From: Xestospongia bergquistia
Lineage: Eukaryota > Porifera > Demospongiae > Haplosclerida > Petrosiidae
Length of the DNA stretch: 64,000 bases
Reading direction: 5' to 3'
Assembly: GCA_963965975.1 (NCBI GenBank)
Contig: OZ014411.1
Span: forward strand, 23,915,249 to 23,979,248
The notes beneath the pieces were generated by a model. It saw only the letters and a list, made by a program, of their open reading frames with translations. It did not search any database and had not been told where the DNA came from. A program made the position numbers and the translations under genes. Shown here piece after piece: positions 13,524 through 42,289 of the stretch (the stretch's first letter is position 1; each line of letters begins with the position of its first letter).

Positions 13524-14185
13524 TTAATGGAATCCTCTGATATAATCATGATTTAATAATTCAGTGGCAGTAGGTCTTTTATTTGAATCAACAGTGAGAC
13601 ATTTCTCAACAAAATCAATCAATGAACTTCCACTAAAAGCTCTTCTCAATCTGACAATCTAAAGTTCAAGAAATCATGAATTAAACATAGCTTTATGTAT
13701 ATGAAAAAATACTTGGCACTTTAATTTTAGAGAACTCATTAATAAGGATTAATAATTGCAAGGACAATATAATTATTGGAGATTTTCACAAAGGGATTTT
13801 ATATAAAGTATTACTGTCACAACATTACTGTATAAAATAATAAAGGCACATTTCTTTATGCTGGCTTTTTATAACCAATTTTTAAGTTCACAATACTACA
13901 ATGTAGTACATTATCAATCCTTCTATCCTGGCATCCATAAATTCAATAATTCATTAATCCATCCACCCACATAGACATACTGGTAATATCTTGTGGATAT
14001 CAGATTCTACAACACATGGCTCAGATCGTCTATAATTACTTATTCCATGTTTCTTTAGAACAGACTGTTTTTGTTGATCTAGCGATTGAGATGTTCTAAT
14101 AGATTGTTTGACTGAGAGCAATAATGTTCCAATCTGTAAACACATACAGATATATGTAATGTAACTTATAAATTACACTTCAACG

Positions 14186-14223
<38 letters not shown>

Positions 14224-17200
14224 CATGTATATCTCTATGAGGTGCCAAATGGTCATCATAGTGCATACTGTCATTTGACTTAAGGGGTGCCAAATATCCT
14301 GCTCTGTATATGCACTCAATTTTAACAAATAATATATATCTCTTATTAATATTTTGGAGTTCCTATTTATAATTCAGATCTCCAATTTATAATTTGGACC
14401 TGTCTCACTTGGCCCCAAAAAATATACATCATGGTTCAGAAGTCTATACTATTTATTGTTTGATGTATGGATGTATTAAGAGCACCTTCCATACTTCATG
14501 ACCACAATCACAAAGCATACAATAAATTATAATTATAGTGTCTTATAACAATTTTATTATTGTATGTGCTTTATCATAGTGGGTGTGGTGTTCAAGAAAT
14601 TCTTTCATAATGTTTTTGTTTCTTATTAGTAGTAGATGATTCTTGTAACATTAGCAAAATATTATAGTTAACAATATACCATTCAATATTTATTCTACTT
14701 ACATTACTGAATACAAAACACTTCGCTTGAGGTTTTTACAGACTTGAGCAGGGCCTTCTAATTAATTAACAAGCTGGAATATTAAGACTTTTTGAAAAGA
14801 AAAGCAGGATTGCACAAGACCACACCCACCATAATAAACTAATAGACAACCTTCAATATTAAAATTGCTTTCTGTTAATCTCATGTTTCCAGATGTGGAG
14901 AGAGGAGAATTTGTAGAGAGTGTCTTAAGATGCATTAGAAAGTGACGAATTTCAAACTATCAAATTATCAAATAAAATTGTCAATTAAAATCATTTAGGG
15001 AATATAATTTGGAGCATGCTTCAATGAGATTGTTATATTAATACAATGGAAGTTGTGAGAGGAGTTGCCTGCTCTTTGAGCTATCAGCAACTCTACAAGG
15101 AGCAAGACATCATTATTGAACAATTTATATACGGAGAGATGTTTTTGTATATCTACCAACAGGATAGATATAATCTTTGTGTTATAATGTTAATGTTATA
15201 AGTATATGATCAGCTGACACCAACTGACTAAATCATACTATTTTAGTTGTAAACCCTCTAATATCCCTCAAGCTTACTTTCCATGCTACGTAATAAACTC
15301 TAAGTTTTATGATCTAGACAACTAAAACAGTTTCCATGTAAATATTTTGGCATTTGAAAATATTATAATGTGATAATACTTGCTAAAGTGTCTCAAAATT
15401 AATTTTCAAAACAACATATCATGATGATTCAAAGTGTAGTAGTGTTCTTGTACTAAGTTCATCCATAATTACATGACATGATGAACAAGATGATTCATTT
15501 CACTCTTTTCATACTACATCATGTTATATTAATAACCTCACCACTCTATTAGCATGATGTCATAATTTACATACATATATAACCTCTCTGTTTTTATTAA
15601 GACACTCTTTAGATATTTCTCTCCCTCATATATCTGGCAACACAAGACTAGCTTTCTGGATATGATCAATAATGTACAAGGAGTGCCTTTGATATGCCAA
15701 GACATCAAACAACAAGTACCATTATCTCATTATCATCATGTAAATTATTTGTAATCACATTGGTTATATGTATGTAATTAGAATGTTGACTCACTTGTGA
15801 CAAATGTTTGGGTCCATCTTCATTTAGAGTTAACAAACACATCAATAGACCAAAGCTACAAAAAGAAAAATAATTACATATTAACATATATTTGGATAAT
15901 TCAAAAGTATAAATATCCACTGAGAGGAAACTATATCATCAATACAACAGAGAATATAACATGAAATATAATGTACCATTGTTGGACAAATCAAAGGAAG
16001 TGGAAAATTGTAGGACACACCCATTATATTAAATGACACTAATATACTGTGCATAGTTTACCTAAAAATATCAGCTTTAGTAGACAATGATGTCATTAAA
16101 TCAGGATTATTGGATACCATATGTATAAATCCTTCTGGTGACTTAAATCCCATTGTACCAACAGGTGATATATGGTATGTTCTGTCAGTTGTAGTATAAA
16201 TGTCTCTAGATGAACTCTTTGGTGGATCAGGTTGAAGAGATCCATCAGGATTTAACTCAAGACTAGCATCAAAATCTGATAGTACCTATGAAATAAAATG
16301 ACATAGTTGTTTACTCATGAATTAATCGCATGCACACTCCCTAATACAATATATATGACTGGCCATGTGTGTATTTCAAACATTGCATATGACAAAGTAT
16401 AGTACTTGTATGCACTTAGTATTAGCAATCAAATAAGTTATATGTTTTATAGTTATCAATTAAACTAATAACAGGATATGTGAGGAACTAGCAAACAAAT
16501 GAAGTCATCATTAAGTACTTTGTACTCCATTCATCAATGACGTCCAAGGCATCTACTCTGTGAAATTACATACCAAATTAAATTATAATTGCAGAAACAT
16601 TATATAAAATTGACATTTAATTCTATTGTTGTATGCAATTATCACACAAGAATAAATTGTTATACCGTTAAAATTGACCTACTAGTTAATACAGTATCAA
16701 GTAGTGTCAATTTTGTAGAAAAAGTAATATGTCTCACAATTTTAGGTCGTTTCCTACAGACACAAGCTAATGGATTAGGACACTCGCAATCTGTCAACAC
16801 CAGAATATTAGATGGTTTGATATCTCTGTGAATTATTGGGTTTGGTAAAGTATGGAGATAATGAAGACCTTGAAGAATCTCCCTAGCAATGTACCTAAAG
16901 GTAGGATATGATATTAGAAAGATCTTTGAACATACATATATACATAGTAGCATATAAGTTTGTTACATTTTACAGTATAATACTTATTCTACATACACAT
17001 ATATATTAGAAATGAGTATACTATTATAAATAATAAATCAATAAACATTTTTTTAAATTAACCAATATTTTTGTTATTTACTTTTGGATATGTGTTATGG
17101 CAATATTAATGATCCTACCAACAACAAAGCACTTTCAGACTGGTATGTAATGTTGTTATGTGTGTTAGACTAAAAAACACAAGTTGACACTGAATATCCT

Positions 17201-18499
17201 TTCAATAAGAAAATATGATCAATGCCATTTGATTTGTTTGTCTAACATGATCTTAAAAACATAATGAATATTGAAATCACGGTACAATGTGGTTTAATTC
17301 ACAGCAAAACACAATGAAATCAATTGCATTGAATAGAAATTGAATGGTCATTCTATGACCAGTGTGAGCACAAATATAGGAAGCTGAATTACACAACACA
17401 CATGTATGTACACTAACAATCGTACTAGCTACTAAGACAAACTCAATCTGAGTTATAATATTCTCATACACCAGACTTAAAAACATAAGTATAACAGATA
17501 AAGGAGGCATTAATTGGGAATAGTACATACATAATATGTATATTTACCTGAAGTTGTTTTGTATCTTTCTTAGTAACAGTGGCTCATTCTTATATCTTTC
17601 GTTTAGAGACCGAAGACAAAATCTTTCATAAGATCCCACAGTTCTTCCCAAGTCATCTGCATATATAATATTAAAAATTAACACATAATAAATTAGATAC
17701 TCACTTGTCATTCTTGGATAATAGTGATAGATATAACGTCTTCTTGGAAAGGCTTCTATAGGATCTCCCATTAACATTGCAATTAGAGGTAAAATATTAG
17801 GATGATGTAATTTAGGCATTATTAAGACTTCTCTCAAACGAAAGGCAGTCCGTTTCACAGCATACACCATTCCTTCAAAAATAACCTTTAAAGGAAAACA
17901 GTATAAGATGACAAAACATCATCATGAGTCAATACCTCTAATATAAGACCATTACCACCTTCTCTTATTACTCGAGTAGTCTTCTTGTCAGGTAGTGTAT
18001 AATCATGTCCAATTACAAACACTTCTCCATCTCCCTATATTAATATGTAATAATATATACATAGTATAGATAAACAAGTAACTTACATAGAAGCAATATC
18101 CTGGTTGATCAAGACCCTCTAATGCATAACGTTTGATTTGTTGCTCTGTTATAAATGCTTGAAGTCCTTCATGAAGTGGTTTGACAAGTGATGTACCAAA
18201 TATACCCAGAACATTCCTATGATGAGAAGACACTATACTACATCAGATGACAATAACAGTTCAGTTTACAACATATAAACACTATTGAACCTAATAAATG
18301 GACTGAATCTTGCAATTTAAAAAAGTCTCTAATACTTTGTAGACAATAAAGAGGTTATTCAAAATAATGTCTCTATTTATTGAAAGACTATCCTACTCAT
18401 GTACACTTGTGCACAATCTTGCATAGTCTTACAAAAAAATTACAAGATGTGTGTGTGTGTGTGAGAGAGAGACAGAGACAGAGACAGAGAGACAGAGAC

Positions 18500-18584
<85 letters not shown>

Positions 18585-21500
18585 CAGAGAGACAGAGAGA
18601 GAGAGGGAGAATGTAGGCAAATAAACAAGTAGAAAGATGTCACAAATAACCTTGGAGATGGTATAGATATCATTGGTGTAACATTAGCTAGAGTAGTATC
18701 AGCTGCCATAACATCAGATTCTTCTTGTTTATTAACTTTTGAAGGAAGTGGTAACTCTCGTACTACCTGCTCATCCTCATTAATGTCAAATATTTTGAAG
18801 TTTTGCCAACGTACATCTTTAACTTCATTTAAATAGTTACATCCAATCTCTCCTGGTTCAATACACTCATCACTATTGGCATACAGTGACATAATTACTG
18901 GGTCTTTTCCAGTGGGTGGAGCTAATGCAATACGAATATATCGACTAGAATTCAATAGAATAAGTTCACTAGTCTCTGCTTGACAAGTAGATCGACTAGA
19001 ATTCAACACGACAAGTTCAGCAATCTCTACTTGACTAGTAGTATGTGATTGTATAGAGGTTGTCTTGTGCTTCTCTTCTAACTCAATAGATCTGTTTGGT
19101 TGAGATACCTAATGAAATAGAAGAATTTTTGAAATGAACATGTTAATATATATACATGTATGTGGTCAAAAAGAAATCATAGGACAGTCTAGTACTCTAA
19201 TCTATACAGTAAACAAGTTACATGTACATAAAGCTATCATTTTTATATTGTTTGTAAGCATGTCAGTTAGATAATAGAGGTTATAACATGTTCATGAGTA
19301 TACAAATCAACACGCAACAAGTGAACAAGCGATCACACACGTTCCTGTACTAAAGTTAATTTGAATGCTAACAGGATGTGTCATACATGCAAAATATAAA
19401 AAATAATGTTGAAATGTTAGGCTATCAACTTCTTTGTGGTATCTATCAAGTTAATGTTAGCTTAAGATAAGATAACATTATACAACAAATTGGTATCTTG
19501 TGATGCTTAGAAACATGTGTTAAGTCATTATTTTAAGATACTATCTTACAAATTGCAAGCGACAATGCAAAATATTGAGAGATTGTGATTAAGAATATCC
19601 AACTGTTTTTGCTAATACATTTCAGTGAACATCTGATCCCATCATAAAGCATAGTTATCGCATACCTCATAACACTAATATTATAAGCTGTTAATATATG
19701 TAACAAAAACAAAAAATGTATTAATAATATGATCTAATATGAGTGATACAAAAACTAATACTTTATGATAATAATAACAACAATATACAGCTAAAATATG
19801 TACAAAATATAACGTGTACTACATGTATAAAAGTAATTAATAATATAAACAATATTACTGTTTATTAGTAACTGAGATCCCTGACATAGCAAATATGTTA
19901 CATTCATGAGTATATGAATCTAATTAAAAGCACCATATAAGGCTTAATTAAATGTCAACACAATATTAATAAAGATAATACAAAACACACTAAAGTAAGT
20001 AGCACTCACTTTAACCTGTTAAATAATCTTTTAAATAATCCATTTGATTTTGGGACAATGAAATATTAAGTCTGTAAGCCTGATATTTAGGATAATATAA
20101 AATAAATATACAATACATCCACATGTACTTTCCGAACCCTTTTCCTATTTTATTATTAATGTCATTACAAAATAAGTATAACTTACTTTAACCCAGTGCA
20201 TTGGTACAATAGGAGTTATTAAGACACTTTCAGAGAAGTCATATCTCGTATTTCGTGAGAAGGAGAACCAGATATGATCATTTTTACGATATTCAGTTTG
20301 TACTAGTATAGGACAATACATTTGTAGTTGAGGGGCAACAAAATCCTTGACTATATTATAAAAAAGAACATTTTCTGCTCGTCTTTGCATTCTATACTGT
20401 TCTGTTGTTTGATGCCCATATGGTACAAGAGATAGTTCAGATAGATGTGAAGAGACAACAGACATTGATGGTCTAGTCACTTGATCTGCTGTTACCACAA
20501 CTGAAGACTTTGAGGTCGCTTCATAAGCTCGACTATTAAAATGTGTGCCACACCCATCATAAGATAAGTACTCACGTAAGGTATTAATTACATAATCTCG
20601 TCTTCGTAAACTAATAACTATACGATTGAGATCACCAAACATTAAGTCATGATCTTCTTTGACAACAAGTACAGGTGTCTTCCTTTTTGTCATATTCATA
20701 CATTTGTGAATACGTAATTTTAATCTACTGACAAGCTTTTCTTTTGAACAGTATAGTTTCCAAGTAGTATCATCTTGAGCTGATGACACTAGATAGTATG
20801 CAATACCATTAATACTGCTCTCAATTTCATCGATGCTAAAACTAAAAATGTGTGATCTGAAGAGCTCATGGTGAACTTGTAAGCACAAGTTATTATCTTG
20901 AGCTTCATTCAAGCATCGCATAATTAATAGTGCTTTTTGGTTACTGACAATTGGATGGCTATCATCAAAACTCAGACAGATGTAGTTAAGAATGTAGAAT
21001 AGAGCTGCTTTAGCTATTTTAGATAATCCGGCTCCTGCTAATCCAAAATACATTTCCAAAATTCCCCATTTTTTTGGATCCAAGGAAAAAAGCTTATCAT
21101 TCACAAACTTCATAACTGTCATTAAAGGTTGATTAATAAGGTAGTAAGCAGCAAAGTATTCCTGTATAATTGGATGAAGGAACTGGTAGTTACAAGATGG
21201 GTTGACAAAGAACCCTTCATATGACATACTTTTAATCATTCCTAGTTGTTTAACATCTGCCATGCAAGCAAATCTACATTTCAGTAGTTCATTAGAGAGC
21301 TCTTCAAATGACTCAGGGTATTCTTCAATGTGTAACAGATAGGCCCACCGAGATAATGTTTTTAAGTCATGAATTTCCCGCCTCTTCATAATTTGATTAA
21401 AAAAAGACACATTTAAAACAAACGGTCTGAAATCTACTTCGTCGAATTTCATGGCTTCATAAATCTTCCCACAGACAATGGCAGTAACAAATGAAGACTT

Positions 21501-21615
21501 AAGTTGGATACATTGCGGTTCTAATTTGATTTCATTCCAGTTGATATTTAAATTAGGGTCATTTAGTGGAAAGTCAGGTATATTTTCTTGTACAAGTATT
21601 TCGAGAGCCATATAC
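13524..21615 (-). CDS. NLR helical region fused to protein kinase (copy 1)
   Basis: Exons: 20187-21615 (ATG at 21611), 18651-19108, 18087-18237 (or 18216), 17936-18034, 17705-17885, 17548-17656, 16738-16894, 16062-16285, 15795-15855, 13981-14133, 13524-13658. About 1050 residues with no internal stop. The first exon carries the winged-helix/HD2-type region that follows NACHT in NLR proteins: MIKSMSYEGFF, YQFLHPIIQEYFAAYYL, a KKWGILEMYFGLAG segment, LIMRCLNEAQDNNLC. No P-loop NACHT and no LRR are present. A linker exon follows, then a kinase: Gly loop GGNG, VYAVKR lysine, REVLIM glutamate, IIHRDIKPSNIL catalytic loop, LSDFD in place of DFG, FKSPEG, ADIFSFG, NKRPTA. The kinase looks catalytically plausible. 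Probably an intracellular signalling protein; the ligand is unknown. The upstream exon homologous to the start of copy 2 (22584-22619) is frameshifted with a stop, so this copy seems to start in its second exon. Confidence 0.8.
18448..18606 (+). repeat. (GA)n microsatellite with CAGA variants
   Basis: About 160 bp of GA repeats interspersed with GACAGA, preceded by a TG run, inside the intron of the NLR-kinase gene between exons 18651-19108 and 18087-18237. The same intron in copy 2 lacks it. Long open frames across it are artefacts of the repeat. Confidence 0.95.
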
Positions 21616-22305
21616 CTAGAACATATTGAACAATAACATTACTGAAAACACTAGAACAAAAGGATTTGTGTACATTTTATTACACATAAACTATGCCTCA
21701 AACTTATGATCCAAACTTGTGCAATTCCTTAATCACAGGTACCAGTCTTGTCTGAGGCAACTATTGTCAACCAGTGATTTGGGGATATACAACTACAAAC
21801 AGACTACTTAAATAACAAATATGACAAAATTATGAAATGCTTGACTAGAGTCCATATGCAATATATCCTGTATGGCAATCGGAACACTACTTTAACTAAA
21901 ACAAGTATGCTAACAATAATCCCGGGCACATGGCTGGGTCAACATAAGGAGCATCAAAATCATGTAAACAAGCTTGTCGGTAGGAAAAAAGTTCATGTCC
22001 AATAGACCTAGGAAATGTACAGACCTTAGTGTTATTTCTTAGACACTTGACCAAGGGATAGCTAAGAAGTTCTAGTACTATCCTATCCATGAATCATTTT
22101 GGGATATTTGGAAATGAATGTCTGGCTTCTTTTGTTTGACTATCCTGGGAACTAAATATACGTGAGTAAATTCCAGGACTAATTAATTAGAGTATTTAAT
22201 TACCTCATTTGACAAAGAGTTCATTACCATTATCATTATCATTGCTTCAAGACTTGTAATTATGTCATTAATTAACTACATTTAAATTACCATTACAAGA
22301 TTCCT

Positions 22306-22480
22306 TGACTGGGACTGGACTGGAGAAAATCTACAATATGTTCACTTCTACATTATTCGTATATTGTATTGTGTTCATCAGATACTTCTTCAGTTATAAT
22401 ATTATATGGCAATAAGAGGATATAGGTAAACAAAAAGAGTGTTAATGTTAGAGATTTTCCTCAGTCCAACTCCAGTCCAG
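22306..22480. mobile_element. Short inverted-repeat element in the first intron
   Basis: The ends form an imperfect inverted repeat: GACTGGACTGGAGAAAATCT on the left pairs with AGATTTTCCTCAGTCCAACT on the right. It lies in the intron between the vestigial start exon and the main exon of NLR-kinase copy 1. The same element is at 42001-42142 in copy 2, so it was in place before the segmental duplication. Confidence 0.65.
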
Positions 22481-22583
22481 TGCTCATTTTAGAAACAGTC
22501 CTAAAATGAGTGAATCTACTAAGTAGCACTATTTATAACAGGCTTATTAGTTAGAACTTACATAAAAACACATATATGATTAC

Positions 22584-22619
22584 CTGCTTTTGACGCTAGA
22601 ATTCAGTAACGTGAGCCAT
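22584..22619 (-). pseudogene. Vestigial start exon of NLR-kinase copy 1
   Basis: Aligned to the 38-nt start exon of copy 2 (42252-42289), this 36-nt stretch keeps the ATG, the AAAAGCAG end and the GTAATC donor. A two-base difference shifts the frame so that it reads MAHVTEF then TAG. It may still be transcribed as 5' UTR. Confidence 0.7.
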
Positions 22620-22799
22620 TTTAATCAAGGTTTAGGGTGTGGTTTTATAAAGATTATAAGGTAGGCGTGGTGAATTACGGACATAGCTTACTGACGCAAA
22701 CAATGAACGTGATCTTCATAATTATAATTTTCAAGTTTTAATATTTTTTATTAATTAATAAATTAAAGCCATAAAAATAGGTGACAACACTTTAGAAAA

Positions 22800-23400
22800 T
22801 TTAAAACAAATAGCGGGAGAATGGCTAAGTGGTACACGAAACAAGACCTTCTAGCTAGATCCAGTCAAAAAGGTAAAAGATGGCAATAGTGTTAGATCAG
22901 CTGCTAAAACGTTTGGCATACCTCACTCAACTCTTAATGATCAATTGATCATTGTTGTAGGGCACACACTAAAATTGTGCTGGTATTCCAACAGAAGCCA
23001 TTGAGAAGGAGATAGTAATGACTTGCCAAATATTAGCTGAAATAGGTTTTGCTATGTCAAGAGATTTGGTTGATGTTGTAGTCAGAGAATATGTAAACAA
23101 AACTGGCATCTTTTACTAACAGCATTCCTGGTAGGAATTAGTAGGAGAGGTTTTTAAATTTTTAAATTGTACTTATGTTCTGCAACCTTTAAATGTTGGA
23201 CCATTTGCTCCATTATAAAAAGGGCATGGGGGCACAATCAATGCATGGAAGATTGAGACAAGAGCAAGTCACATATCAAAAGAGTCCATTCCAGGGTTAA
23301 TATCAAAGCTTTGGGATGCAATTGCAACCATGTACATGTAATTGGAGGATTCAAAGGAAGTGGAATCTTTCCTCTTAAGGTTCTTAGCCATCTTGGTTAG
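22800..23400 (+). pseudogene. Decayed Tigger/pogo-type DDE transposase
   Basis: Fragments of a Tc1-mariner superfamily (pogo/Tigger, DDE_1) transposase follow in order with frameshifts: an HTH-like piece (SVRSAAKTFGIPHSTL, 22890-22945), a CENPB-type piece (EIVMTCQILAEIGFAMSRD, 23010-23065), a piece like LQPLNVGPFAPL (23180-23215), and a C-terminal GGFKGSGIFPLKV motif (23343-23382). The catalytic core is largely deleted. The right boundary abuts the truncated third kinase-gene copy. Confidence 0.8.
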
Positions 23401-24180
23401 AGTTATTCCAATACAAATATATCGACTAGAATTCAACAAGACAAGTTCAGCAATATCTACCTGACTACTACTACTACTACTACTAGTATGTGATTGTATA
23501 GAAATTTGTATTGTACTTCTCTTCTAACTCAATAGATCTATTTGGTTGAGATACCTAATGAAACAAAAAGAATTTTAAATAGACATGTTAATATATATAC
23601 ATGTATGTGATCCAAAACAAATCATAAGACAGTCTAATACTCTAAACTATACAGTAAACAAGTTACATGTACATAAAGCAATCATTTTTATATCGTTTGT
23701 AAGCATAATCATTAGATGACTATAATATATTCATGAGTATATACTAATCAAATTAACATGCAACAAGTAAACAGATTAAACACACACAAACACAGATCTG
23801 TAATAAAGCTCAATTCAATGGCAACAGGGTGTGTCATATATTTAAAAGGCACTAAAATAAGAAAATACTCACTTTAAACCAGTGAATTGGTACAATAGGA
23901 GTTTTCAGTACACTTTCATAGAAGTCATATCTCATATTATTTGAGAAGTAAAACCAGATATGATCACTTCTTAGATATTTGGCTTGTACAAGACAATACT
24001 TTTGTAGTTGAGGGCGAACTAAATCTTTTACCGTATTAAAAAAGGGCATCTTTCACTCATCTTTGCATTCTATATTGCTTTATTGTTTCATGGCGATATG
24101 GTACAAGATCTAAAGAGACAACAGTCACTGATGGTCTAGTCACTCGATTCGTTGTTACAATGACTGAAGACTCTGAGGTT
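23400..24180 (-). pseudogene. Truncated third copy of the NLR-kinase gene
   Basis: Two blocks match the NLR-kinase genes: 23405-23555 resembles the start of the linker exon (VSQPN-type sequence and the TATCGACTAGAATTCAA motif seen at 18940 and 39945), and 23880-24180 resembles the 3' end of the main exon, translating as DLVRPQLQKYCLVQAK, DHIWFYFSNNMRYDFYE, PIVPIHW. The intron between them is also conserved. A CTA triplet run sits at 23465-23483. No kinase exons are attached. Confidence 0.85.
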
Positions 24181-24289
24181 AGAAATTTAGAAATTAACAT
24201 TAAAGATTGATAAATATCAAAAGACATGCATCATAATATAATTTTAGACATTTAAATATTTATTTTCTTTTTTTGTTGATTTATTTTAG

Positions 24290-24740
24290 ATCAAGTGGTA
24301 ATGCTGTAAGATCTAAAAAGAACTGCACTCTTTCTAACTGCTTGGCACATTATTATTCATACAATCCTCTACCTTTACCTAAAGAGCCAAGGATTGTCCT
24401 ACTAATTGTACCTTTAATGAAGACATAAACAATACCTGTATGGCTACACGGGGTTTATGTGTTAACAGAGCTTACCGTAAAATCTACGAAAGTGTAAGTT
24501 AATATTTTCTAACTATTGTCATTATTAGTAACTTATAGATTTCATCCCAAGATAGAATACGTGAAAACTTCCGATGCTGGGCTTATCCTGGGTAATTAAA
24601 TATAAAGAACGTACTTACATTTTAAAAACAGTAAATAGCTATGTAATACTATAGAGTGCTCTTTTCACAGATAGTGACTGCTTTTTTGGTTTTACTACAA
24701 CTGTACATGTTATAAGATTTGTAATGTGACTGATGTTTGT
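24290..24740 (+). pseudogene. 3' exons of a secreted-mosaic paralog, opposite strand
   Basis: On the plus strand an exon beginning near 24291 reads CTLSNCLAHYYSYNPLPLP, then after a frameshift CPTNCTFNED and RAYRKIYES, matching CTITNCQACYYSYNTLPFP, CPQQCNDI and RSYSRIYKT in the exon at 440-638. The next exon (24541-24591) has RENFRCW, matching PENFRCW of the terminal exon at 233-292. A possible further exon starts near 24672. The frameshift makes this a probable pseudogene. Confidence 0.75.
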
Positions 24741-25700: not shown

Positions 25701-25724
25701 ATAGTACTAGTGTATAATACTGCA

Positions 25725-25875: not shown

Positions 25876-25974
25876 TTTTTTATTTTTCATTCTATATTAT
25901 ATAATAATATTTAAGGTTAACAGTAATTTTCATTTTACTGTAATAAACTTTGGAATTGTCTATATACAATATTA

Positions 25975-26830
25975 TACAGAAATTTTATCACAGTTGTCGC
26001 ATAACCAAATGTAAGATCTTTTTTTAATGACCTCTTCTGAGACTTGCACACAAACATCAATATGGTACCATTCAGAACAAGTGCTGCATTGAATCATCTT
26101 TAAATCTTTGATCTCTGGCATCCGATATTTGCAATATACTGGTGTCTTTACAATATTGATGATTTTATGGACCTTTCGACCAACACGTCTTGTAGTAAAT
26201 TTATTTAAGCAGCTGTGTAAGTGGTCTCTCATCTTTCGTTGCTCAAATGTATATCTACTTGGATCATCTCCCATAACAATCACTGATGCAAAAGTCAGAG
26301 CAAAGAGACCACAATCTGATGAGCCAACTTGTGACTGGTAATACCTATACCTTTAAAGATAAAATGAAACTTAGTGAGTAAAAACAGATAAGACTGACAT
26401 ACCTGATGTTGATTTCTCTATGAGTGGGTGGCAAACAAACAATTGTTGCAATTTTTCTTTGAAGTGATGAACTCATTGCAGGTGGTCACATCCACAAACC
26501 AAGGTCACATCCATATGTGGAGATAGTCACCCAATGATCATATCCTGTATGTAACACTTGAACAAATGGAGACCTTTGAATATCAAATGCTAGAGTTTGT
26601 CCAAGATTGGTATCTTGTAACCCATTGCAGAGAGGAAAAGATGTTGCGATGAGTCTTTGTGATGCATTTACAATGGTATCATTCAACCACTCCCCAGATA
26701 ATAGAATATGTTCATCAGCCTTTGATAGCTTCTGTACCCACATACTCTCTACATTCATTATGTCTCGTAGATCAACCTTATCAATCTGCTCACTGTTATT
26801 TGCTACCTCTTTCAGATTTGCTAGCTTAGC
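25975..26830 (-). pseudogene. Ulp1/SENP-like (C48) cysteine protease with PHD-like tail, probably element-derived
   Basis: Reading from about 26830 down: LSKADEHILLSGEWLNDTI, then GYDHWVTIS (catalytic His), then after one in-frame TGA (near 26487) and a short intron (about 26350-26401), QVGSSDCGLFAL with the active-site Gln and Cys, and MRDHLHSCL. The last ~50 residues have paired Cys and His (CSTCSEWYH, WLCDNC) like a PHD or related zinc finger. Such proteases are common in metazoan DNA transposons. The stop codon and the lack of other element parts argue for a pseudogene. It faces the Death-LRR gene head to head. Confidence 0.7.
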
Positions 26831-27018
26831 CTTCAGTCGTATTTTTGTAGTAGTTAGTTATGTTTGGAATTTACTCATTGTTATGATACAAATCATATGA
26901 CTATTTGCCAAGGATAAAGAAGAACACGTACCTCTGTCCAGTAAGTAAATTGCTTTAATAACTGAGATTTTTATTTATAATTACATTTTTTTTAAAAATT
27001 CAAATATTTTAGGCTAAA

Positions 27019-28907
27019 ATGGCTACTGGAGATAGTTCATTTGATGAGATATTAAATGGTGAGCCAACTTTAGCTGAGTTATGTGCAGATGTTCCTATCA
27101 GTACTAACTGGTATATAATGGGAACACAACTTAAACTTAATATCAGAAAATTAAATGAAATTGAAGATCTATCCAAGCCTGTTCCTTACAAAGTATCAAA
27201 GATGTATGAACTGTGGCTGGATACTAACCCCCAAGCTACAAGGAGACAAATTCTGGAGACATTAAGGATGGAATCGATTTGTCAAATGAGTCTAGCTCAG
27301 CAATATGAGACAAGGTTAAAAGAGCACATTTCTATTATTGGTTAGTGACTTATGACAGTGTATAAAGTTATGTTATTAACTTATTACAATATAAAGCATC
27401 CAGATAAATTCCTAATGAAACAAGTGCTAGCTTACAACCTGTAATAACAATTATGGCAAATACATTACAATTGACTAGACATAAGACTGTTAATAGTACA
27501 TATGATTACATTCTATAGCTACTGATAAAGTATTAGTAAAGAAACAAAAAGAGATTGAGAAAATGACAAGAGTGATAGAAGGTAAGTTATAGTAATGTTA
27601 GTAGTACATATACCATGTACAGTTAGACAAACAAAAAGACAATGAGATGCTGCAAGAAAAGATAACATCACTAACTTTACAGTTAACGGAGAGAGATAAA
27701 CAGATTACTCAGATGATGGAGAACATGAAAAGTAAGCAACTACTAGACATTCTGTTATGTCTGTTTAGCTCTACAGTCTCAGGTGGTACAGTTACGTGAT
27801 AAAATTAAAAGTAGTGATCCTCAGTTAAGTCAAAAGTTTAAGGAGGTACTAACTAACCAAGAAGAGTCATCATCAGATGACAAACTAACTCAAGAAGAAC
27901 CAGCTGACAGAGTGGATGATAATGAAACAAAAGACATCATATGCCATGTACAGTTAGACAAACAAAAAGACATTGAGATGTTGCAAGAAAAGATAACATC
28001 ACTAACTTTACAGTTGTATCAGAAGAATAGTAAGTTTGAGCTAATATGAATACTGTAATGCTGTAATCTTGTGAAAATACTAATGTTACATTGTAGGCCT
28101 GCATCATGATAATATAGTCAATGTGTTCTAACATATTAAAATAATGTAACTATTATTACTATTATAACTATTATTAAAGTTAATAACTATTATTAAAGTT
28201 CATTTTGTAGATTTGTTTATATTCATACATTGTTGCTATAGCCTTCTTAGTTAAGCTTTGATAGTCATAGTTGAGCATGTTAGAGTGTGTGTATAGCTAT
28301 TGTTGTGTATGGAAAATATTATGTATTAACTATGTTTTATATAGGGGAGACTGGAAGTGTTAAGTGGACTAGTGATAATGTTACACTTACTTCATCTACT
28401 GTGGTGGAATGTAAAGAAGTGATATGTCAATTAAAGAGAAAACAACACACAACATGGAGGATTAAACTTACGTCATTATCTCCACAAAGCTTACTAACAG
28501 TATTAACTGATATTAATGAATGTCAAGTGAGGAGACTTGTTATAGTGAACAATTATTTTGATAGTAATTGTGTAAGTCAATTAGTGCAAGTAGTAACTTA
28601 TAACAAAACAATGGAGAACCTATTTCTTATCTCCTCGCCTCTCTTACAAGATACTTACCAGTTACTAACAACTGCTCTAACTAATAATAAAGTAATCAAG
28701 ATATTATACTTGTGGCATGACAATAACATTAGTGATAAAGATATACCTCATCTCTCTCATCTTATCACTAATAATAAAACGTTGCAATCACTTTATCTCA
28801 CTGACTGTCCTAATATTACTAAATTTGGTAAAAAACAATTACAAGATGTTTGTGCTAAAAATAATAGTTTGAAGCGTTTGTCCATTAATGACAATATACT
28901 CCGTTAA
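27019..28907 (+). CDS. Death domain, coiled coil, LRR protein
   Basis: Five coding exons: 27019-27340, 27519-27581, 27627-27731, 27769-28029, 28345-28907; about 437 residues, all internal introns phase 1. An AG just before the ATG suggests a 5' UTR exon upstream. Residues ~15-107 look like a Death domain (NWYIMGTQL, YELWLDTNPQATRRQILETL, AQQYETRL). Residues ~108-250 are a charged coiled coil; DKQKDNEMLQEKITSLTLQL occurs in exon 3 and almost exactly again in exon 4. The last exon has a short KWTSDNVTL-type region followed by ribonuclease-inhibitor-like LRRs (LFLISSPLLQDTYQLLTTAL, LYLWHDNNISDKDIPHL). It is related to the genes at 44505-47209 and 47349-51169 on the other strand. Likely a cytoplasmic adaptor or sensor. 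There is no NACHT or other catalytic domain. Confidence 0.8.
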
Positions 28908-32235: not shown

Positions 32236-32414
32236 AGGTGATTTGGTTTATAAAAATGTTTTAATAAAAATCCCACAATTTAAGTATAAAATCAGAAAAT
32301 ATTATATATCATGTATAAATTGAAACATATGGTGTTTGTGATTGTGTTTTGATGTTATGTTAGATGCTAACAATACATATATATAGCAAATATCATTCAG
32401 TTCATGTATGTTGT

Positions 32415-32852
32415 CTATAATTTAGTTAAAATAGCAAATAGAAAACTGTAACAATAATAAAGTATAAACATCCATAACAAAAACATAAAAAACGATTTGT
32501 TGTGTACTATTGCTATCACAACAAATATTAGAAGCACACAACAAGTCCAACTTTGAAAACTTTCTAGATCTGATGAAAAGCTAACTTTTGAATCTCTTCT
32601 CTTTATACGATGGGGTTTCTCGCAATCTTTGCAATGATCAACTTGATTTCCTAGATCAACGGAGCTTCGCTTACATTTGCGGTGTCCATCACTAAAATCT
32701 GAAGAGTTGCTGTCCACAGATTGCCTTTTACAGTGTGATCTTTTGTAACATAGCCGATCCTCAAACTTCAATGGGTTAGTGTTTTTGTCTAACAGAGAGG
32801 AACGCTTTCTTTTAGTAAAACAGTATTGCTACAGTTTGTGTTATGGGAAGAC
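32415..32852 (-). pseudogene. Frameshifted copy of the small two-helix membrane protein
   Basis: From about 32815 down to the stop, the frame matches the 12615-13073 protein closely, including both hydrophobic segments and the end FLFAILTKL. The 5' end is broken. The ancestral ATG region (MSSHN, 32850-32852) is followed by a net 7-nt deletion relative to unit 1 and then a TAG. No in-frame ATG precedes the conserved part; the longest frame opens at a TTG (32771). The last ~118 codons are intact, so the loss may be recent, or a different start may be used. Confidence 0.7.
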
Positions 32853-33305
32853 ATATTGACGTTTCACACCCCTAATTTGTAAAGCCTCGCCCAAATGCAT
32901 GTGTAAGGACGTGTGTAAAAAACAAACATTAAGAGAAAACATCTGTTTCCACTTTAAAAGTTAACTACTTTAACATTAAGAGAATTTTCTAAAAATTTGT
33001 AGCTAGTTGCATGAACACAGTTGGTTCTTCAAATCAAACAAACTCTTGTTGGTTGTGTTTCTTCAAAGATTTTTTAAACTTTAAAGTCTTTGGCAGCCAT
33101 TTACTTGTAACAAATTCAAACAGTTGCTGTTTGTCTACAAAGTTTTATATCTGCAGGCACTATTGTGGTTATTATTGGAAAAGGGAGTGTCAAAAATACT
33201 GGGTTATAAATGACTTAATAACTACTAAATTAAAATTATATACTATAGTACAAAAAGAAAGTAACCAAAAACATGGCTTACATAATTATACTACAATATA
33301 CTTCA

Positions 33306-36300
33306 TTAATGAAATCCTCTGATATAATCATGATTTAATAATTCAGTGGCAGTAGGTCTTTTATTTGAATCAACAGTGAGACATTTCTCAACAAAATCAA
33401 TCAATGAAGTTCCAAAAAAAGCTCTTCTCAATCTGACAATCTAAAGTTAAAGAAAATCATGAATTAAGCATAACTTAATATGTATTAAATATATTTGGCA
33501 CTTAAATTTTTGGCGAACTTATTAATAAGGATTAATAGTTGCAAGGACAATTATAATTATTGGAGATTTTCACAAAAAAGATTATATAATTTAAAGTATT
33601 ACTGTCACAACTATAGGATAATAAAAGCACATTTCTTTATGCTGGCTTTTTATAACCAAAAAAACAGACATTACTACATTACTACAGGTACATTATCCTT
33701 CCCTCTATCCTGGCATCCATCCATTCAATCATCCATTAATCCATCCATCCATCCTCATAGACATACTGGTAATATCTTGTGGATATCAGATTCTATAACA
33801 CATGGTTCAGATTGTCTATAAGTAGTTATTCCATGTTTTTCTAGAATAGACTGTTTTTGTTGATCTAACGATTGAGATGTTTTAATAGACTGGTTAACTG
33901 AGAGCAATAATGTTCCAATCTGTAGACACATACACATATATGTAATGTAACTACACTTCAAACCTATATATATGTGTTATACATGTATATCTCTATGAGG
34001 TGAAAAATGGTCATCATAGTGCATGCCTTTTTGTGTCATTTGGCTTATAGGGTGCCAAATAGGACAAAAAGCCTGCATAGTGTATATGCACTCAATTTTA
34101 ACAAATAATTCAGACCTCTTAATAATAATTTGGAGCTCCTATTTATTTATAAGTTACAGAAGCCAAGGACAGACATTCCAATTCTTATTTCTTATTTCTT
34201 CCGTGAACGTTCATGTATTTAAAAATTCCAGTTAACAACTAGTTGATGAGTTCAAATTTCTTATTCCTTATTCCATTTTTGGTACATATGCCATTTCTAG
34301 GCTTTTCTTGTTACTTAATAAAACATGGAATGCCAGTACCACGAGCTGTCTCTTAGAATCCAGCATCAGTGAGATGTTTATAGTTGGGTTGGTTTCCTGA
34401 TTTTGGTTGTATATTGTAGATCTGTTATTTATGGAAGCCAAGGATGGACATTCTAATTCCATATAACCCTCTTCAATTAAAAAGGAAATAGAAATTGGAA
34501 TATCCATCCTTAGCTTCTATAATAATTTAGAGATCCTAATCATAATTCAGATCTCCAGTTTATAATTTGGACCTCATCATAGGCATGGCTTTTTGTCTCA
34601 CTTGGCCCCAAAAAATATACATCATGGTTCAGAAGTCTATACTATTTATTGTTTGATGTATGGATGTATTAAGAGCACCTTCCATACTTCATGACCACAA
34701 TCACAAAGCATACAATAAATTATAATTATAATGTTTTATAACAATTTTATTATTGTATGTGCTTTATCATAGTGGGTATGGTGTTCAAGAAATTCTGTCA
34801 TCATGTTTTGTTTCTTATTAGTAGTAGATGATTCTTGTAACATTAGCACAATATTATAGATAACAATATACCATTCAATATTTATTCTACTTACATTACT
34901 GAATACAAAACACTTTGCTTGAGGTTTTTACAGACTTGAGCAGGGCCTTCTAATTAATTAACAAGCTGGAATATTAAGACTTTTTGAAAAGAAAAGCAGG
35001 ATTGCACAAGACCACACCCATCACTATTGATCAATTTATATATGGAGAGATTTTTTTGTATGCCTACCAACAGGATAGATATAATCCTTGTGTTATAATG
35101 TTACTGTTATAGTTATATGATCAACTGACACCAACTGACTAAATCATACTATTTTAGTTGTAAACCCTCTAATATCCCTCAAGCTTACTTTCCACGCTAC
35201 GTAGTAAACTCTAAGTTTTATGATTTAGACAACTAAAACAGTTTCCATGTACATATTTTGGCATTTGAAAAAATTATAATGTGATAATACTTGCTAAAGT
35301 GTCTCAAAATTAATTCTCAAAGTAAAACAACATATCATAATGATTCAAAGTGTAGTAGTGTTCTTGTACTAAGTTCATCCATAATTACATGACATGATGA
35401 ACAAGATGATCCATTTCACTTTTTTTCACACTAAATTATGTTATATTAATAACCTCACCACTCTATTAGCATGATGTCATAATTTACATACATATATAAC
35501 TTCTCTGTTTTTATTAAGACACTCTCTAGATATTTCTCTCCCTCATATATCTGGCAACACGAGACTAGCTTTCTGGATATGATCAATAATGTACAAGGAG
35601 TGCCTTTGATATGCCAAGACATCAAACAACAAGTATCATTATCTCATTATCATCATGTAAATTATTTGTAATCACATTGGTCATATGTATGTAATTAGAA
35701 TGTTGACTCACTTGTGACAAATGTTTGGGTCCATCTTCATTGAGAGTTAACGAACACATCAATAGACCAAAGCTACAAAAAGAAAAATAATTATATATTA
35801 ATATATATTTGGATAATTCAAAAGTATAAATATCCACTGAGAGGAAACCATATCATCAATACAACAGAGAATATAACATGAAATATAATGTACCACCATT
35901 TTTTGGTCAACCAGAAGAATATTATATATGTATAATATGCATAGTTTACCTAAAAATATCAGCTTTAGTAGACAATGATGTCATTAAATCAGGATTATTG
36001 GATACCATATGTATAAATCCTTCTGGTGACTTAAATCCCATTGTACCAACAGGTAATATATGGTATGTTCTGTCAGTTGTAGTATAAATGTCTTTAGATG
36101 AACTCTTTGGTGGATCAGGTTGAAGAGATCCATCAGGATTTAACTCAAGACTAGCATCAAAATCTGACAGCATCTAATGAAATAAAATGACATAGTTTGT
36201 TTACTCTACAAATACCTTATAATATTCAATGAGTAGCATTATTTCAGGTTCCTCAAATTATAACTAACATATTGGCAATTACATAAATCATAGTTATTCT

Positions 36301-39300
36301 ATTGACAATATTATTGGCTGAATTTTGAAAAGTTATAAAATCATTTCACCTTTACTATCAACCCTTTTAAGTACATTCATTTAATCTATCCAAAATATTT
36401 TGAGTGTCTTATGTGTCAACAGCTATCATTTTGAACTTTGGTTTAATATTGAACCTTTATAATGTCTAAGTCCATAATGTCTAAACTCTCATAAGTGTTA
36501 TATTAACAAGTCTTTATTCAAGTAAGGCAAAAGCAATATTTTTAGTATTAGCAAAACAGAAATTTAGTAACTTAATTGAGTAATACTCCAAGTTGCCTTA
36601 GATGGATTATATTAACTGTTCTTAACATAACTGTACTACAGTAACATAATACATCTATATACAAAATACCATACAAACACACAATACCTACATTATAGTC
36701 TCGTTTTTAGCTGGGATATGTATATAGGTTTGGACATTCTATTTAGTGCCTAACCAATGATTTGGCAATCTCAAATTAAGGGTAATGGTCTATTACATAC
36801 TTAGGCAAAGATGTACTATTATAATACAAATAATTTCATGTTAACTTAAAAGAATAATCAAGTCCCTTTGCTCACAGGAATGAAATTTTGTGTGAAAGTG
36901 GAATTCAAAGGGATATCTTCTGTAATATCATAGCCAATCTTAAAACACATCATGAAGTTAATGTCCATAATGTGTCATCTACTAATTAGCATCAACATCA
37001 TCAATAAGTGATAGTACAATTAGACAGCCCAGGTTGATAGTCTATGTAAACAATATAGGTATACTTCATATATGAATTATACCTATATTGTTGATAACAG
37101 GAAGTAAGAACGTACACAGCATGTACATGTAAACAAGATTGCATCATGTATCTCATACTATTTAGATAATTGCCAAGCGCCTTAGCACGAGGCAAATAAT
37201 CATGCGTCGCATCTCGCAGATAGTTTGTATGTATGTATGTATGTGTCACGCTTGAGAATGCAATTATTTCAGCGCAACGCGCAAACGTATGCTCACGTGC
37301 TTCAGTGTAACGCTTAGGAATGTTACTGCACTAGCTCCACGACCTTTTGCTGCAATCTGAACTCGTAACTCGGAACTCTTGTGGCTCTTTGTCCACGGCC
37401 CAATCGCTTGCACAATTCAGTGCATGAGGCTCCACACTGCGTATACGTATGTCTAGTAAATAGTCAATCTGTTCTGATTTTCAAAACAAATTCTTTAGGC
37501 AAACCACAAAGGAATACATACTCTTCATACCAGGCAGTTCTCCCTTCATTCAGTTATATTATATTATTCAAAATTATCACTTAATTATACTTGGATATTT
37601 CCTCTCTCAAGATGTTCAACTATATCCACAGCAATTATATGTACATCCTTATATAAAACTATTTTAATAAAGTATAACTTTGTATTATATATGTCTCACA
37701 ATTTTAGGTCGTTTTCTACAGACACAAGCTAATGGATTAGGACACTCGCAATCTGTCAACACCAGAATATTAGATGGTTTGATATCTCTGTGAATTATTG
37801 GGTTTGGTAAAGTATGGAGATAATGAAGACCTTGAAGAATCTCCCTAGCAATGTACCTAAAAAAAGAATGTCAGAGCTCTGTAATTAATTAGTACATATC
37901 TTAGTTACATATTATGTAACTGTACAATACACTTGAATTGGAATTCTTCATAACAATATATATCTATAATCTGTGCTGTATAATAATCAATAAATATAAT
38001 AAAATATTGATCTCATTTAATAGTAGCCAAGAGTTATTTGTGATGTATTTTTAGAGATATATTATCGTAATAGTTACATATATACATGTACATCAGTCAA
38101 TTATACTGTTCCTATTAATTAATGTTAATTCATCTACTTTATAATTCTCAACAGGATTAACTTTATCCTAGTGGGAATTATATTACATTTGGCAAATTCC
38201 AAGTATGAATAACAAAAAAAATTATAGACAAAGTGTATAATGTCATAACAAAGTGTCTTCTAACTAGAATGTAGGCACATTGTACTAAAATTACAGTTCA
38301 TACTGAATACACACTCCAATATCCATATCTTTTAATGGTCTCGTGTTACCTAACATCTTAAAATATGCACTACAAATGTAACGCACATAAAAACAACTAT
38401 TCAATGTGGTTTCAATGAACATGTATGTGCATCAGCCTTGAATAAAATCGATTTGCATTGGAAGTAAATTTATAAGGAAATCTGTGCCCAGTGTGAACAC
38501 ATAAAAGAAAGCTGCACTACAAAATATATACACAAACTAAGATATTATCTCCTTATATAAATAAACATAAGCATACCTTGTAAATATTCATGTAGTTAAG
38601 GAAGGCATTAATTGGGTATATAGCACATAATGTTATGTACATTAACCTAAAGTTGTTTTGTATCTTTCTTAATAGCAGTGGTTCATTCTTATATCGTTCA
38701 TTAAGACTTTGAAGACAAAATTTCTCATAAGACTTCACAGACCTCCCCAAATCATCTGCATAATATTAAAAGGTTAAAATATAATAAATTTAGATACTCA
38801 CTTGTCATTCTTGGATAATAGTGATAGATATAACGTCTTCTTGGAAAGGCTTCTATAGGATCTCCCATTAACATTGCAATTAGAGGCAAAATATTAGGAT
38901 GATGTAATTTAGGCATTATTAACACTTCTCTCCAACAAAAGGCAGTCCGTTTCACAGCATACACTGTTCCTTCAAACATCACCTTTAAAGGTAAACAATA
39001 TAAGATGACAAAACATCATCATGAGTCAATACCTCTAATATAAGACCATTACCACCTTCTCTTATTACTCCAGTAGTCTTCTTGTCAGGTAGTGTATAAT
39101 CATGTCCAATTACAAAGACTTCTCCATCTCCCTATATTAATATGTAATAATATATACATATTATAGATAGACAAGTAACTTACATAGAAGCAATATCCTG
39201 GTTGATCAAAGCCCTCTAATGCATAACGTTTGATTTGTTGCTCTGTTATAAATGCTTGACGTCCTTCATGAAGTGGTTTGACAAGTGATGTACCAAATGT

Positions 39301-42289
39301 ACCCAAAACATTCCCATGATGAGAAGACACCATACTACATTGAAACACAATGACAGTTGACAATATATAGACACTATTGACCTAATGACTCTAGTATATG
39401 GAATGTTTCTTACAATATAGCAGCATTGGCCTTTAAAGGAACTAGTTTCAACACATTATGTAACTAAACATATGCTATTAACCTGTTTTCACTACAACAA
39501 GTAATAAAAGACATAGTCTATATTCATTGAAAATATGTTCTAGACCTAGGCCTCTAAAATTATAATCTTATGAGTAAATGAGGGACAAAATAAAAGAAAA
39601 TACAGGAGATTAATAGAAAACAAATGTTATAAAATCCTAACCTTGTATGTGGAGAACTAACAGGTACAGATACCATTGTTGTAATATTAGCTACAGCAGT
39701 ATTAGTTGTCATAACACCAGATTCTGTTTCTCGATTTGATGGAAGTGGTAACTCACATACTACTTGCTCATCCTCCCCCTCTTGAAATGTCTTAAAATTC
39801 TGCCAACATATATCTTCTTTAATCTCGTATTTCTCATCTAAATAGTCACATCCAATCTCTCCTGGTTCATTACATTCATCACTATTGGCATATAATGATA
39901 TGATCATTGGGTCTTCTCCTGTGGGTGGAGCTATTCCAATACGAATATATCGACTAGAATTCAACAAGACAAGCTCAGCAATCTCTACTTGACTACTACT
40001 ACTAGTATGTGATTGTATAGAGATTGTCTTGTACTTCTCTTCTAACTCAATGGACCCGTTTGGTTGAGATACCTAATGAAACAGAACAGTTTTTGAAATG
40101 AACATGTTAATATATATACATGTATGTGGTCAAAAAGAAATCATAGGACAGTCTAGTACTCTAAACTATACAGTAAACAAGTTACATGTACATAAAGCTA
40201 TCATTTTTATATTGTTTGTAAGCATGTCAGTTAGATACAATAATGTATCCATGAGTATATTAATTAAATTAACATGAAACAAGTAAACAGATCACATACA
40301 AACACACACATCTGTAGTAAAGCTAATTGAATGGCAACATGATGTGTGTCATATATTCAAAAGATACTAAAATAAGAAAATACTCACTGTACTATTACTT
40401 ACTTTAAACCAGTGCATTGGTACAATAGGAGCTATTAGTACATTTTCATAGAAGTCATATCTCATATTATTTGAGAAGGAGAACCAGATATGATCATTTC
40501 TACGATATTCAGTTTGTACTAGTATAGGACAATACTTCTGTAGTTGAGGAGCAACTAAATCCTTTACCATATTAAAAGAAAGGACATTTTTCACTCGTCT
40601 TTGCATTCTATACTCCTTTCTTGTTTGATGGCCATATGGTACAAGATCTAAAGTGACAACAGTCATTGATGGTCTAGTTGCTCGTTCTGCTGTTACTATG
40701 ACTGAAGACTCCGAGGTTACTTTATGAACTTGACTATCAAAACGTGTGTCACGTCCACCATAAGATATGTGTTCACTTAAGGCAGTAAAAACATAATCTC
40801 GTCTTCGTAAACTAATAACTATACGATTGAGATCACCAAATAGTAAGTCACGATCTTCTCTGACAACTAGCACAGGTGTCTTCCTTTTTGTCATATTCAT
40901 ACATTTGTGAATGCGTAATTTTAATTTGCTAACAAGCCTTTCATTTGAACAGTATAGTTTCCAAGTAGCATCATTTTGAGCTGATGACACTAGATAGTAT
41001 GCAATACCATTAATACTGCTCTCAATTTCCTCTATGCTAAAACTAAAAATCTGTGATCTGAAGAGCTCATGGTGAACTTGTAAGCATAAGTTATTATCTT
41101 GAGCTTCATTCAAGCATCGCATAATTAATAGTGCTTTCTGGTTACTGACAATTGGATGGCTATCATCAAAACTCTGACAGATGTAGCTAAGCATGTAGAA
41201 TAGAGCTTCTTTAGCTATTTTAGACAATCCAGCTCCTGCTAATCCAAAATACATTTCCAAAATTCCCCATTTTTTGGGATCCAAGGAAAAAAGCTTATCA
41301 TTCACAAACTTCATAACTGTCATTAAAGGTTGATTAATAAGGTAGTAAGCAGCCAAATATTCCTGTATAATTGGATGGAGGAACTGGTAGTGATAGGATG
41401 GTCCGTTAATTATGCCTTCATATGACACACTCTTAATCAATCCTAGTTGTTTAACATCTGCCATGCAAGCAAAACTACATTGTAGTAGTTCATTAGAGAG
41501 TTGTTCAAAAGACTCTGGGTATTCTTCAATGTGTAACAGATAAGCCCAACGAGATAACATTTTTAAATCATCAATTTCTCGCCTTTTCATAATTCTATAG
41601 AATAAAGACACATTTAAAATAGGCGGTCTGACTTCTTTGTACGATTTCATGGCTTCGTAAATCTTTCCACAAACAATGGCAGTAATGAATAAAGACTTGA
41701 GTTGAGTACATTGTGGTTCTGATTTGATTTCGTTCCAGTTGATTTTTAAATAAGGATCATTTAGTTGAAGGTCGGGTAAAATATCTTGTACATCTTGTTG
41801 TAGTGCATCAACAGTAATAGGACTAGAATATATTGAATAATAATAATATTACCAAAAACACTATAACAAAATATTTGTATTATATTTTAATAATACTATT
41901 ACATCAAAAAATAAGATAGAAATTACCATTACCGTTACTTCAAGACTTGTAGTTAATTATGTAATAATTAATTAGATTTAAATTACCATTACAAGGTTCC
42001 TGACTGGGACTGGACTGGAGAAAATCTATCATATTTTCACTTTTACATTATTTTATATATTGTATTGTGTCCATATGAGGATATAGGTAAACAAAAGAGA
42101 GTATTAATGTTAAAGATTTTCCTCAGTTCAACTCCAGTCCAGTGCTCATTTTAGTAACAGTCCTATAATAAGTGGATCTATCAACTAACATTATTAACAC
42201 TAGCAGGCTTATTACTTAGAACTTACATGCACACATTAAATATAGAATTACCTGCTTTTGAAGCCACACTTGAAAAACCAGTGATCCAT
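33306..42289 (-). CDS. NLR helical region fused to protein kinase (copy 2)
   Basis: Exons: 42252-42289, 40403-41822, 39642-40072, 39184-39334, 39033-39131, 38802-38982, 38647-38755, 37700-37856, 35950-36173, 35712-35772, 33767-33919, 33306-33440; about 1052 residues, phase kept throughout. The start exon encodes MDHWFFKCGFKSS and joins in frame to SPITVDALQQDVQDILP, a segment replaced in copy 1. The order matches copy 1: NLR-type helical region (YQFLHPIIQEYLAAYYL, GLAGAGLSK, RCLNEAQDNNLC), a linker with SSRYIRIGIAPPTGEDP, then kinase (GGNG, VYAVKR, REVLIM, IIHRDIKPSNIL, LSDFD, FKSPEG, DIFSFGLL, NKRPTA). Codon-level conservation with copy 1 and identical kinase exon lengths suggest both are functional. 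For the exon at 39184-39334, the AG used in alignment with 18216 of copy 1 has become GG, but an AG 21 nt upstream restores an in-frame junction. The protein is presumably an intracellular signalling kinase; regulation is unknown. Confidence 0.82.
34158..34518. mobile_element. 361-bp inverted-repeat element inserted after the duplication
   Basis: The ends pair: AGAAGCCAAGGACAGACATT at the left and, on the complement, AGAAGCTAAGGATGGATATT at the right. It is absent from the equivalent intron position in unit 1 (near 14365), so it inserted after the segmental duplication. Two closely related copies form the foldback at 51272-51984. Confidence 0.85.
37170..37475. other. CpG-rich island inside an intron of NLR-kinase copy 2
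   Basis: About 300 bp with many CpG dinucleotides (GCGCCTTAGCACGAGGC, CAGCGCAACGCGCAAACG, CACGGCCCAATCGC) in otherwise AT-rich sequence. It is part of roughly 1.1 kb that unit 1 lacks. A GTAT tetranucleotide run is at 37227-37242. No RNA gene or frame with recognisable product was found. It may be a mobile element or a nested promoter. Confidence 0.5.
42001..42142. mobile_element. Short inverted-repeat element, partner of 22306-22480
   Basis: The ends GACTGGACTGGAGAAAATCT and AGATTTTCCTCAGTTCAACT pair as inverted repeats, in the same intron position as the unit 1 copy but with a shorter interior. Confidence 0.65.

Follow-up and report, generated by a model that had tools for sequence, protein, structure and literature searches.

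Fusions of a protein kinase to NLR-type sequence are already known from fungi and plants. The accessible part of PMC12258605 describes 12 NLRs with a kinase domain in Sordariales, C-terminal in 9 of the 12 and read as possible decoys, and states that kinase domains are often found in plant NLRs; PKinase is also among the fungal NLR domains listed in the accessible part of PMC4986451. Here we describe a gene family of the sponge Xestospongia bergquistia, first seen in a stretch of 64,000 nucleotides (contig C1, 23,915,249-23,979,248; hereafter the window, in which position 1 is the first nucleotide) and followed across the 146 Mb, 21-contig genome that we searched. We show that the predicted family protein comprises a region with homology to the NLR winged helix and HD2 (WH-HD2), with an end that resembles the start of an LRR region, then a conserved linker and a complete C-terminal kinase, with no NACHT found. 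The first-pass annotation of the window knew of no described family with this architecture. That holds for the NACHT-less animal form, which is apparently undescribed in the literature searched (no description of a NACHT-less winged-helix/HD2-kinase protein is among the literature matches listed, subscription papers being mostly outside their coverage), but it does not extend to NLR-kinase fusions as such.

The window family shares with the fungal PKinase NLRs the joining of a protein kinase to NLR-type sequence (PMC12258605 and PMC4986451, accessible parts), and with plant NLRs that have an integrated kinase the presence of kinase and NLR parts in one protein (PMC12258605, accessible part). 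In contrast to the fungal proteins, which are defined by a nucleotide-binding switch, that switch is missing from the window family, and the spliced first gene does not encode a nucleotide-binding switch and a kinase in one chain. The Sordariales kinases resemble CHK2, according to the accessible part of PMC12258605, whereas the family kinase groups with no named family in a search of the PDB. Animal NLRs, including NLRP and sponge NLRs, have in common with the family a WH-HD2 region with the motifs FLHP..QEY.AAYYL and CLNEAQDNNLC in the same order, but the family has no detected NACHT or P-loop, no clear LRR array and no Death or CARD, and a C-terminal kinase instead. Plant NLRs carry NB-ARC and LRR and are a different lineage from the animal NLR-kinase family. 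In RNase L and IRE1 a sensor or repeat region precedes a kinase-fold domain, as in the window family, although the latter contains neither ankyrin repeats nor an RNase domain and its protein ends at the kinase.

The first-pass annotation had placed two minus-strand genes in the window, and the strings that it quoted from them are present. We found that each splices, from the genomic sequence, into a single continuous open frame of 11 exons in which every intron is GT-AG (splice sites and phases were read in these two genes only). Gene 1 extends from 21615 (ATG at 21611) to a stop at 13524, with a product of 1050 amino acids; gene 2 extends from 41822, or from an ATG in exon 1 at 42289, to 33306, with a product of 1052 amino acids if 42289 is the start. 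We refer to the exons in order as exN, exM, k0, k1, k2, k2b, k3, k4, k5, c2 and c5. The family is larger than the two copies first counted: matches to the same exons, with their order kept, occur at 7 loci on three contigs: the window has two, C1:24.96-25.03 Mb has three, and C9 (at ~136 kb) and C11 (at ~6.61 Mb) have one each. With the exons of gene 1 as queries against the six other loci, 65 of the 66 exon-locus combinations were matched at an expectation value (E) up to 1 with a stop-free best match, the weakest being c2 at C9 (E 0.01) and several covering only part of the exon; the remaining combination, exM at C11, was matched by the exon of gene 2 (E 2e-5). The large exon is 78-81% identical to that of gene 1 in three copies, 51% in one, 34% at C9 and 29% at C11. 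Kinase exons k2-k4 are 56-100% identical to those of gene 1, except the insert k2b at C11 (49%), and in the last two exons identity drops to 35-48% in the C9 and C11 copies; the divergent C1 copy has 55% and 41% in these exons. Kinase pieces lacking the large exon were found at C9:7366681 and C1:9210373-9215382 (9210373/9214900). We rejected these relics as the ancestral architecture; they have no adjoining exN match and look truncated or broken.

Substitution patterns were assessed in ten pairs of five C1 copies by Nei-Gojobori counts of the ratio of nonsynonymous to synonymous rates (dN/dS). Between gene 1 and gene 2 this ratio is 0.28 in WH-HD2, 0.28 in the kinase, and 0.62 and 0.59 in parts of the linker. 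Across the pairs, it is 0.13-0.30 in WH-HD2 for 9 of 10 (one being undefined) and 0.13-0.28 in the kinase for all 10, with the limits that in WH-HD2 dS is saturated (2.3 or more) when one member of the pair is the divergent C1 copy, the three lowest ratios of such pairs included, and that gene conversion also biases pairwise dS. Thus, the WH-HD2 part and the kinase are both under purifying selection. The exon order kept at 7 loci, together with this selection, makes chance very unlikely, and our data support exN and the kinase exons being one predicted gene, not two. The divergent C1 copy (C1:25,015-25,022.7 kb, third of the cluster at C1:25 Mb) is a mosaic by nucleotide identity to gene 1 and the copy at C1:24.97 Mb. 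Codons 30-389 of its large exon are 39-78% identical, the next stretch reaches 98% and the following one 60-80%, the kinase core is 81-100% and the last exons 57-71% identical. WH-HD2 and the C-terminal end are thus divergent in this copy, and a linker stretch and the kinase core nearly identical, a pattern that suggests gene conversion. Across the family, divergence is faster in the WH-HD2 half than in the kinase, which is what one expects if a recognition part is coupled to an output that stays constant.

Homology of the first large exon to NLRs (20187-21615 in gene 1, with the WH-HD2-like region at about residues 84-312 of the protein, a possible LRR start and linker; 40403-41822 in gene 2; both minus) was proposed in the first-pass annotation and is borne out by HMMER ranking, profile-profile scores, matches to NLRP5 and searches with NLRs of the genome itself. 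A profile of the 7 copies was run with HMMER against 8 NLR open reading frames (ORFs) of the genome, 607 ORFs that include 10 of the family, and 2,008 decoys made by shuffling or reversal, and all 8 NLRs (E 4.5e-8 to 0.012) ranked above every decoy (best 0.32). Profile-profile comparison with 15 NLRs of the genome gave a probability of 97.7% and a score of 105.1 over 184 aligned columns; none of 100 column shuffles scored above 27.6. The score remained at 46.7 with the first motif masked and at 84.5 with the second masked. This match runs from the winged helix across HD2 to where the LRR region begins, so the annotation's statement that LRRs are missing, which agrees with the absence of any LRR match in Pfam for spliced gene 1, may be slightly wrong. 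The only PDB sequence matches at E up to 10 were three NLRP5 chains (E 0.039-0.085, not significant alone), and they cover the winged-helix/HD2 region with both motifs in order. A search of the window and the other loci with NLRs of the genome gave 22 matches at E up to 0.01, every one of them in exN, in both window genes and two other C1 copies. Judged by sequence profile only, exN thus has the winged helix and HD2 that follow the NACHT in an NLR. The search of exN against HD2 models that the annotation had recommended was only suggestive in Pfam: NLRC4_HD2 matched both window exons at E 0.03, below its cut-off, and among the 7 copies it gave a match at E up to 1 in five (best 0.014). AlphaFold models, both of low confidence, were made from the window sequences only, with two rows each, and in the longer one Foldseek rows 1-11 are NLRP-type (E 0.06-0.23, none at 0.001); 7 of these titles name NLRP, and the other 4 are SCMC or cytoplasmic-lattice entries with the chain unnamed. 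Taken as sequence, homology of exN to the NLR winged-helix/HD2 region is well supported, with much of the signal in the two motifs.

Consistent with the first-pass annotation, the nucleotide-binding part of an NLR was not found. Spliced gene 1 has no NACHT among Pfam matches at E up to 1 and no P-loop (GxxxxGK[ST]), nor does it have an N-terminal CARD, Death or Pyrin match in Pfam, an optional feature of NLRs. The genome contains at least 95 NACHT matches, none of them in the window. Among those listed, the nearest on C1 lies at 24,424,063, ~445 kb from the window, C9 has none, and on C11 a distance of ~6 Mb separates them from the family copy. Queries made of the N-terminal halves of 15 NLRs gave no NACHT-like match at the 7 loci; two matches were seen at E up to 0.1, one at window 3.6 kb (E 0.097) and one to exN (E 0.048), the latter because the query still held the WH-HD2 part. 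We also rejected a NACHT in an upstream exon: no NACHT was found at the loci, and the next exon upstream of exN is the 5' exon. In 7 of 8 NLRs taken from the genome, NACHT and winged-helix/HD2 lie in one long open frame, the eighth ORF being cut short. Since the two usually share a frame, the family resembles an NLR that has lost its 5' part up to and including the nucleotide-binding domain.

Between exN and the kinase lie exM (18651-19108 in gene 1, 39642-40072 in gene 2), a conserved linker region outside known families, and the linker exon k0 (18087-18237 and 39184-39334), in which a start methionine is not conserved (SMVSS in gene 2, SIVSS in gene 1). The linker matched no family in Pfam or PDB searches, with a single PDB match at E 1.5.

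The kinase is full-length and catalytically plausible, as first annotated. Pfam PF00069 (Pkinase) matches residues 728-1046 of spliced gene 1 over profile positions 46-263 of 263, at E 2.2e-22 and 80.2 bits against a cut-off of 31.7. On the minus strand of gene 1 and gene 2, respectively, the glycine loop (REGGNGLILE in gene 1) is encoded by k1 (17936-18034; 39033-39131), the beta3 Lys (AVK) and alphaC Glu, assigned by eye, by k2 (17705-17885; 38802-38982), the kinase insert by k2b (17548-17656; 38647-38755), the catalytic loop HRDIKPSN by k3 (16738-16894; 37700-37856), and the DFD motif, activation loop, SPE and KAD by k4 (16062-16285; 35950-36173). The C-lobe follows in k5 (15795-15855; 35712-35772) and c2 (13981-14133; 33767-33919), and c5 (13524-13658; 33306-33440) holds the kinase end and the stop. 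The beta3 Lys, alphaC Glu, HRD Asp, Asn, metal-binding Asp of DFD, SPE and F-helix Asp are present, by eye, in all 7 copies. HRDxKPxN is the Ser/Thr kinase type, and a Ser/Thr kinase is the best reading of the sequence. No named subfamily was assigned; the best of 497 PDB matches was p38 (40 bits), mainly over the catalytic loop. Five weak kinase relatives on C14, C4 and C1 were rejected as kin, being a different, DFG-type family. We observed that these kinases carry the signature HRD[VI]SS[AS]NVLL...SDFGSANKA and long N-terminal regions, coiled-coil-like by eye in several.

We consider the chances about even that the family represents a 5'-truncated NLR fused to a Ser/Thr kinase, with the NLR part acting as a regulator or docking module. 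An NLR gene that kept only the part after its nucleotide-binding domain would have been joined upstream of a kinase gene, and this fusion would predate the divergence of the 7 copies. In NLRs, winged helix and HD2 transmit and restrain activation. Since no NACHT was found, WH-HD2 could not act by way of nucleotide exchange, and we infer that its simplest remaining use is to offer the kinase of the same chain a surface that binds or inhibits it. The NLR-derived part would no longer switch by nucleotide exchange but would keep the kinase inactive, or bring it to a partner, which might be a ligand, a protein that is damaged or has been modified by a pathogen, or an assembly of NLRs; binding would then free or concentrate the kinase, and downstream targets would be phosphorylated. 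By analogy, the function is probably immune or stress signalling. We hold more tentatively, as something rather unlikely, that the family forms an animal receptor-kinase class in which a NACHT-free WH-HD2 senses or docks and gates the kinase of its own chain, phosphorylation replacing oligomer assembly as the output. The first-pass annotation had proposed that a kinase replaced the ATPase switch, which we likewise regard as an inference. Its observation is confirmed and reflects more than chance, and its interpretation is partly supported, being right in its core, with a mechanism that is a reasonable guess.

Several results weigh against a truncated NLR acting on a kinase. Neither window copy reaches the cut-off of the Pfam HD2 model, and for two divergent copies Pfam gives no family at E up to 1. 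Masking both motifs lowers the profile score to 25.9, inside the shuffled range, and the flanks of the first motif, each used alone with HMMER, place no NLR above the best decoy among the matches listed. The NLR queries reach none of three divergent copies at E 0.01. The AlphaFold models of exN are of low confidence (predicted local distance difference test, pLDDT, of 37 for the longer and 43 for the shorter), and the shorter one returned unspecific helical proteins, with no NLR in the top 50 Foldseek rows. dN/dS is higher in the linker, ranging over 0.10-0.72 among the C1 pairs. Furthermore, faster change of the NLR part can also fit weaker constraint, and the suggested immune function is by analogy only.

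An integrated decoy or decoy-like competitor, in which the NLR part would bind NLRs or their ligands and tune NLR signalling while the kinase is bait or passenger, seems unlikely to us. The at least 95 NACHT matches mean that NLRs to bind do exist in this genome. However, a bait would not need catalytic residues, and here the kinase is the best-conserved part and retains them in 7 of 7 copies; there is also no NACHT for the usual entry into an NLR oligomer.

It is similarly improbable that the kinase has become a pseudokinase scaffold, an ATP- or protein-binding domain devoid of phosphotransfer. All 7 copies have DFD instead of DFG, as well as Arg for the first glycine of the glycine loop (aligned by eye), and RNase L is a DFD protein not known to have kinase activity. 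RNase L, however, is not known to have the HRD that the family kinase keeps, and the beta3 Lys, alphaC Glu, HRD Asp, Asn and metal-binding Asp all remain in place.

We regard it as quite improbable that the protein is an ordinary kinase whose N-terminal helical region evolves fast and resembles NLRs only through the short F.HP..QE..AA motif and the CL.E.Q motif. Such a protein would account for the concentration of most similarity in two motifs, the null-range score upon double masking and the two divergent copies without a Pfam match, but the motifs stand in the right order at about the right distance, the remainder scores above the null when either is masked (46.7 and 84.5 vs 27.6), and the only PDB matches, to NLRP5, fall on the same stretch. 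Joint duplication of two adjacent genes, one an NLR fragment and the other a kinase, was rejected as highly improbable: exN, exM and k0 join in frame across GT-AG introns with no stop in both window genes, whose frames are continuous to the end, and all 7 loci, which lie on three contigs, keep the exon order.

If the NLR part gates the kinase, WH-HD2, which is usually viewed as the hinge of an ATPase, can work as a stand-alone regulator, and the separate role of HD2 in NLRs would become testable in an ATPase-free protein. The truncated NLR-kinase fusion would also be an animal route that links NLR-type recognition to a kinase, parallel to the fungal and plant fusions. Sponge NLR papers, in their accessible parts, seek NLRs through NACHT and would therefore miss the genes of the window family; more generally, NLR surveys that count by NACHT domain would overlook such proteins. 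For sponge NLRs, expression has been followed upon exposure to microbial molecular patterns (PMC6208332).

The 5' ends of the two window genes differ. Exon 1 of gene 2 (42252-42289, minus, hand-counted), a candidate for the start codon, ends at 42252, and the alignment shows a matching exon in gene 1 that shares its donor, AAAAGCAG/GTAAT (22584-22619, minus, hand-counted from the alignment). The ATG of the gene 1 copy meets an in-frame TAG, so this exon would be untranslated and translation would begin in the large exon. An ATG early in the large exon is present in 6 of the 7 copies and missing from gene 2, translation of which may start in exon 1. A third, broken copy persists in the window as a remnant with stops (23404-24182, minus; the end of exN and pieces of exM), and a second set of broken remnants lies at C1:25.006-25.009 Mb.

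The first-pass annotation took neighbouring Death and LRR genes as a dispersed NLR toolkit, which over-reaches. Three LRR ORFs, related at 26-68% mutual identity, are located at 44508-45308 (minus), 47352-48215 (minus) and 28284-28904 (plus), and a Death-like ORF at 27013-27342 falls below the Pfam cut-off. In the stretches searched around the other five copies (~69, 20 and 20 kb), none of these four has a relative at E up to 1e-3, and on this ground we rejected them as components of the system. A duplicated basic ORF lies downstream of each kinase gene, with hydrophobic ends by eye (12618-13082 and 32418-32828, minus), so that the duplicated unit is larger than the gene. These ORFs were rejected as C-terminal exons of the kinase genes, whose own stop ends the kinase before them. 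Elsewhere in the window, a PHD finger is contained within 25975-26352 (minus), preceded by a stretch whose sequence resembles an Ulp1-kind cysteine protease, and an exon at 7124-7738 (minus) encodes a Von Willebrand factor A domain (E 1.7e-36).

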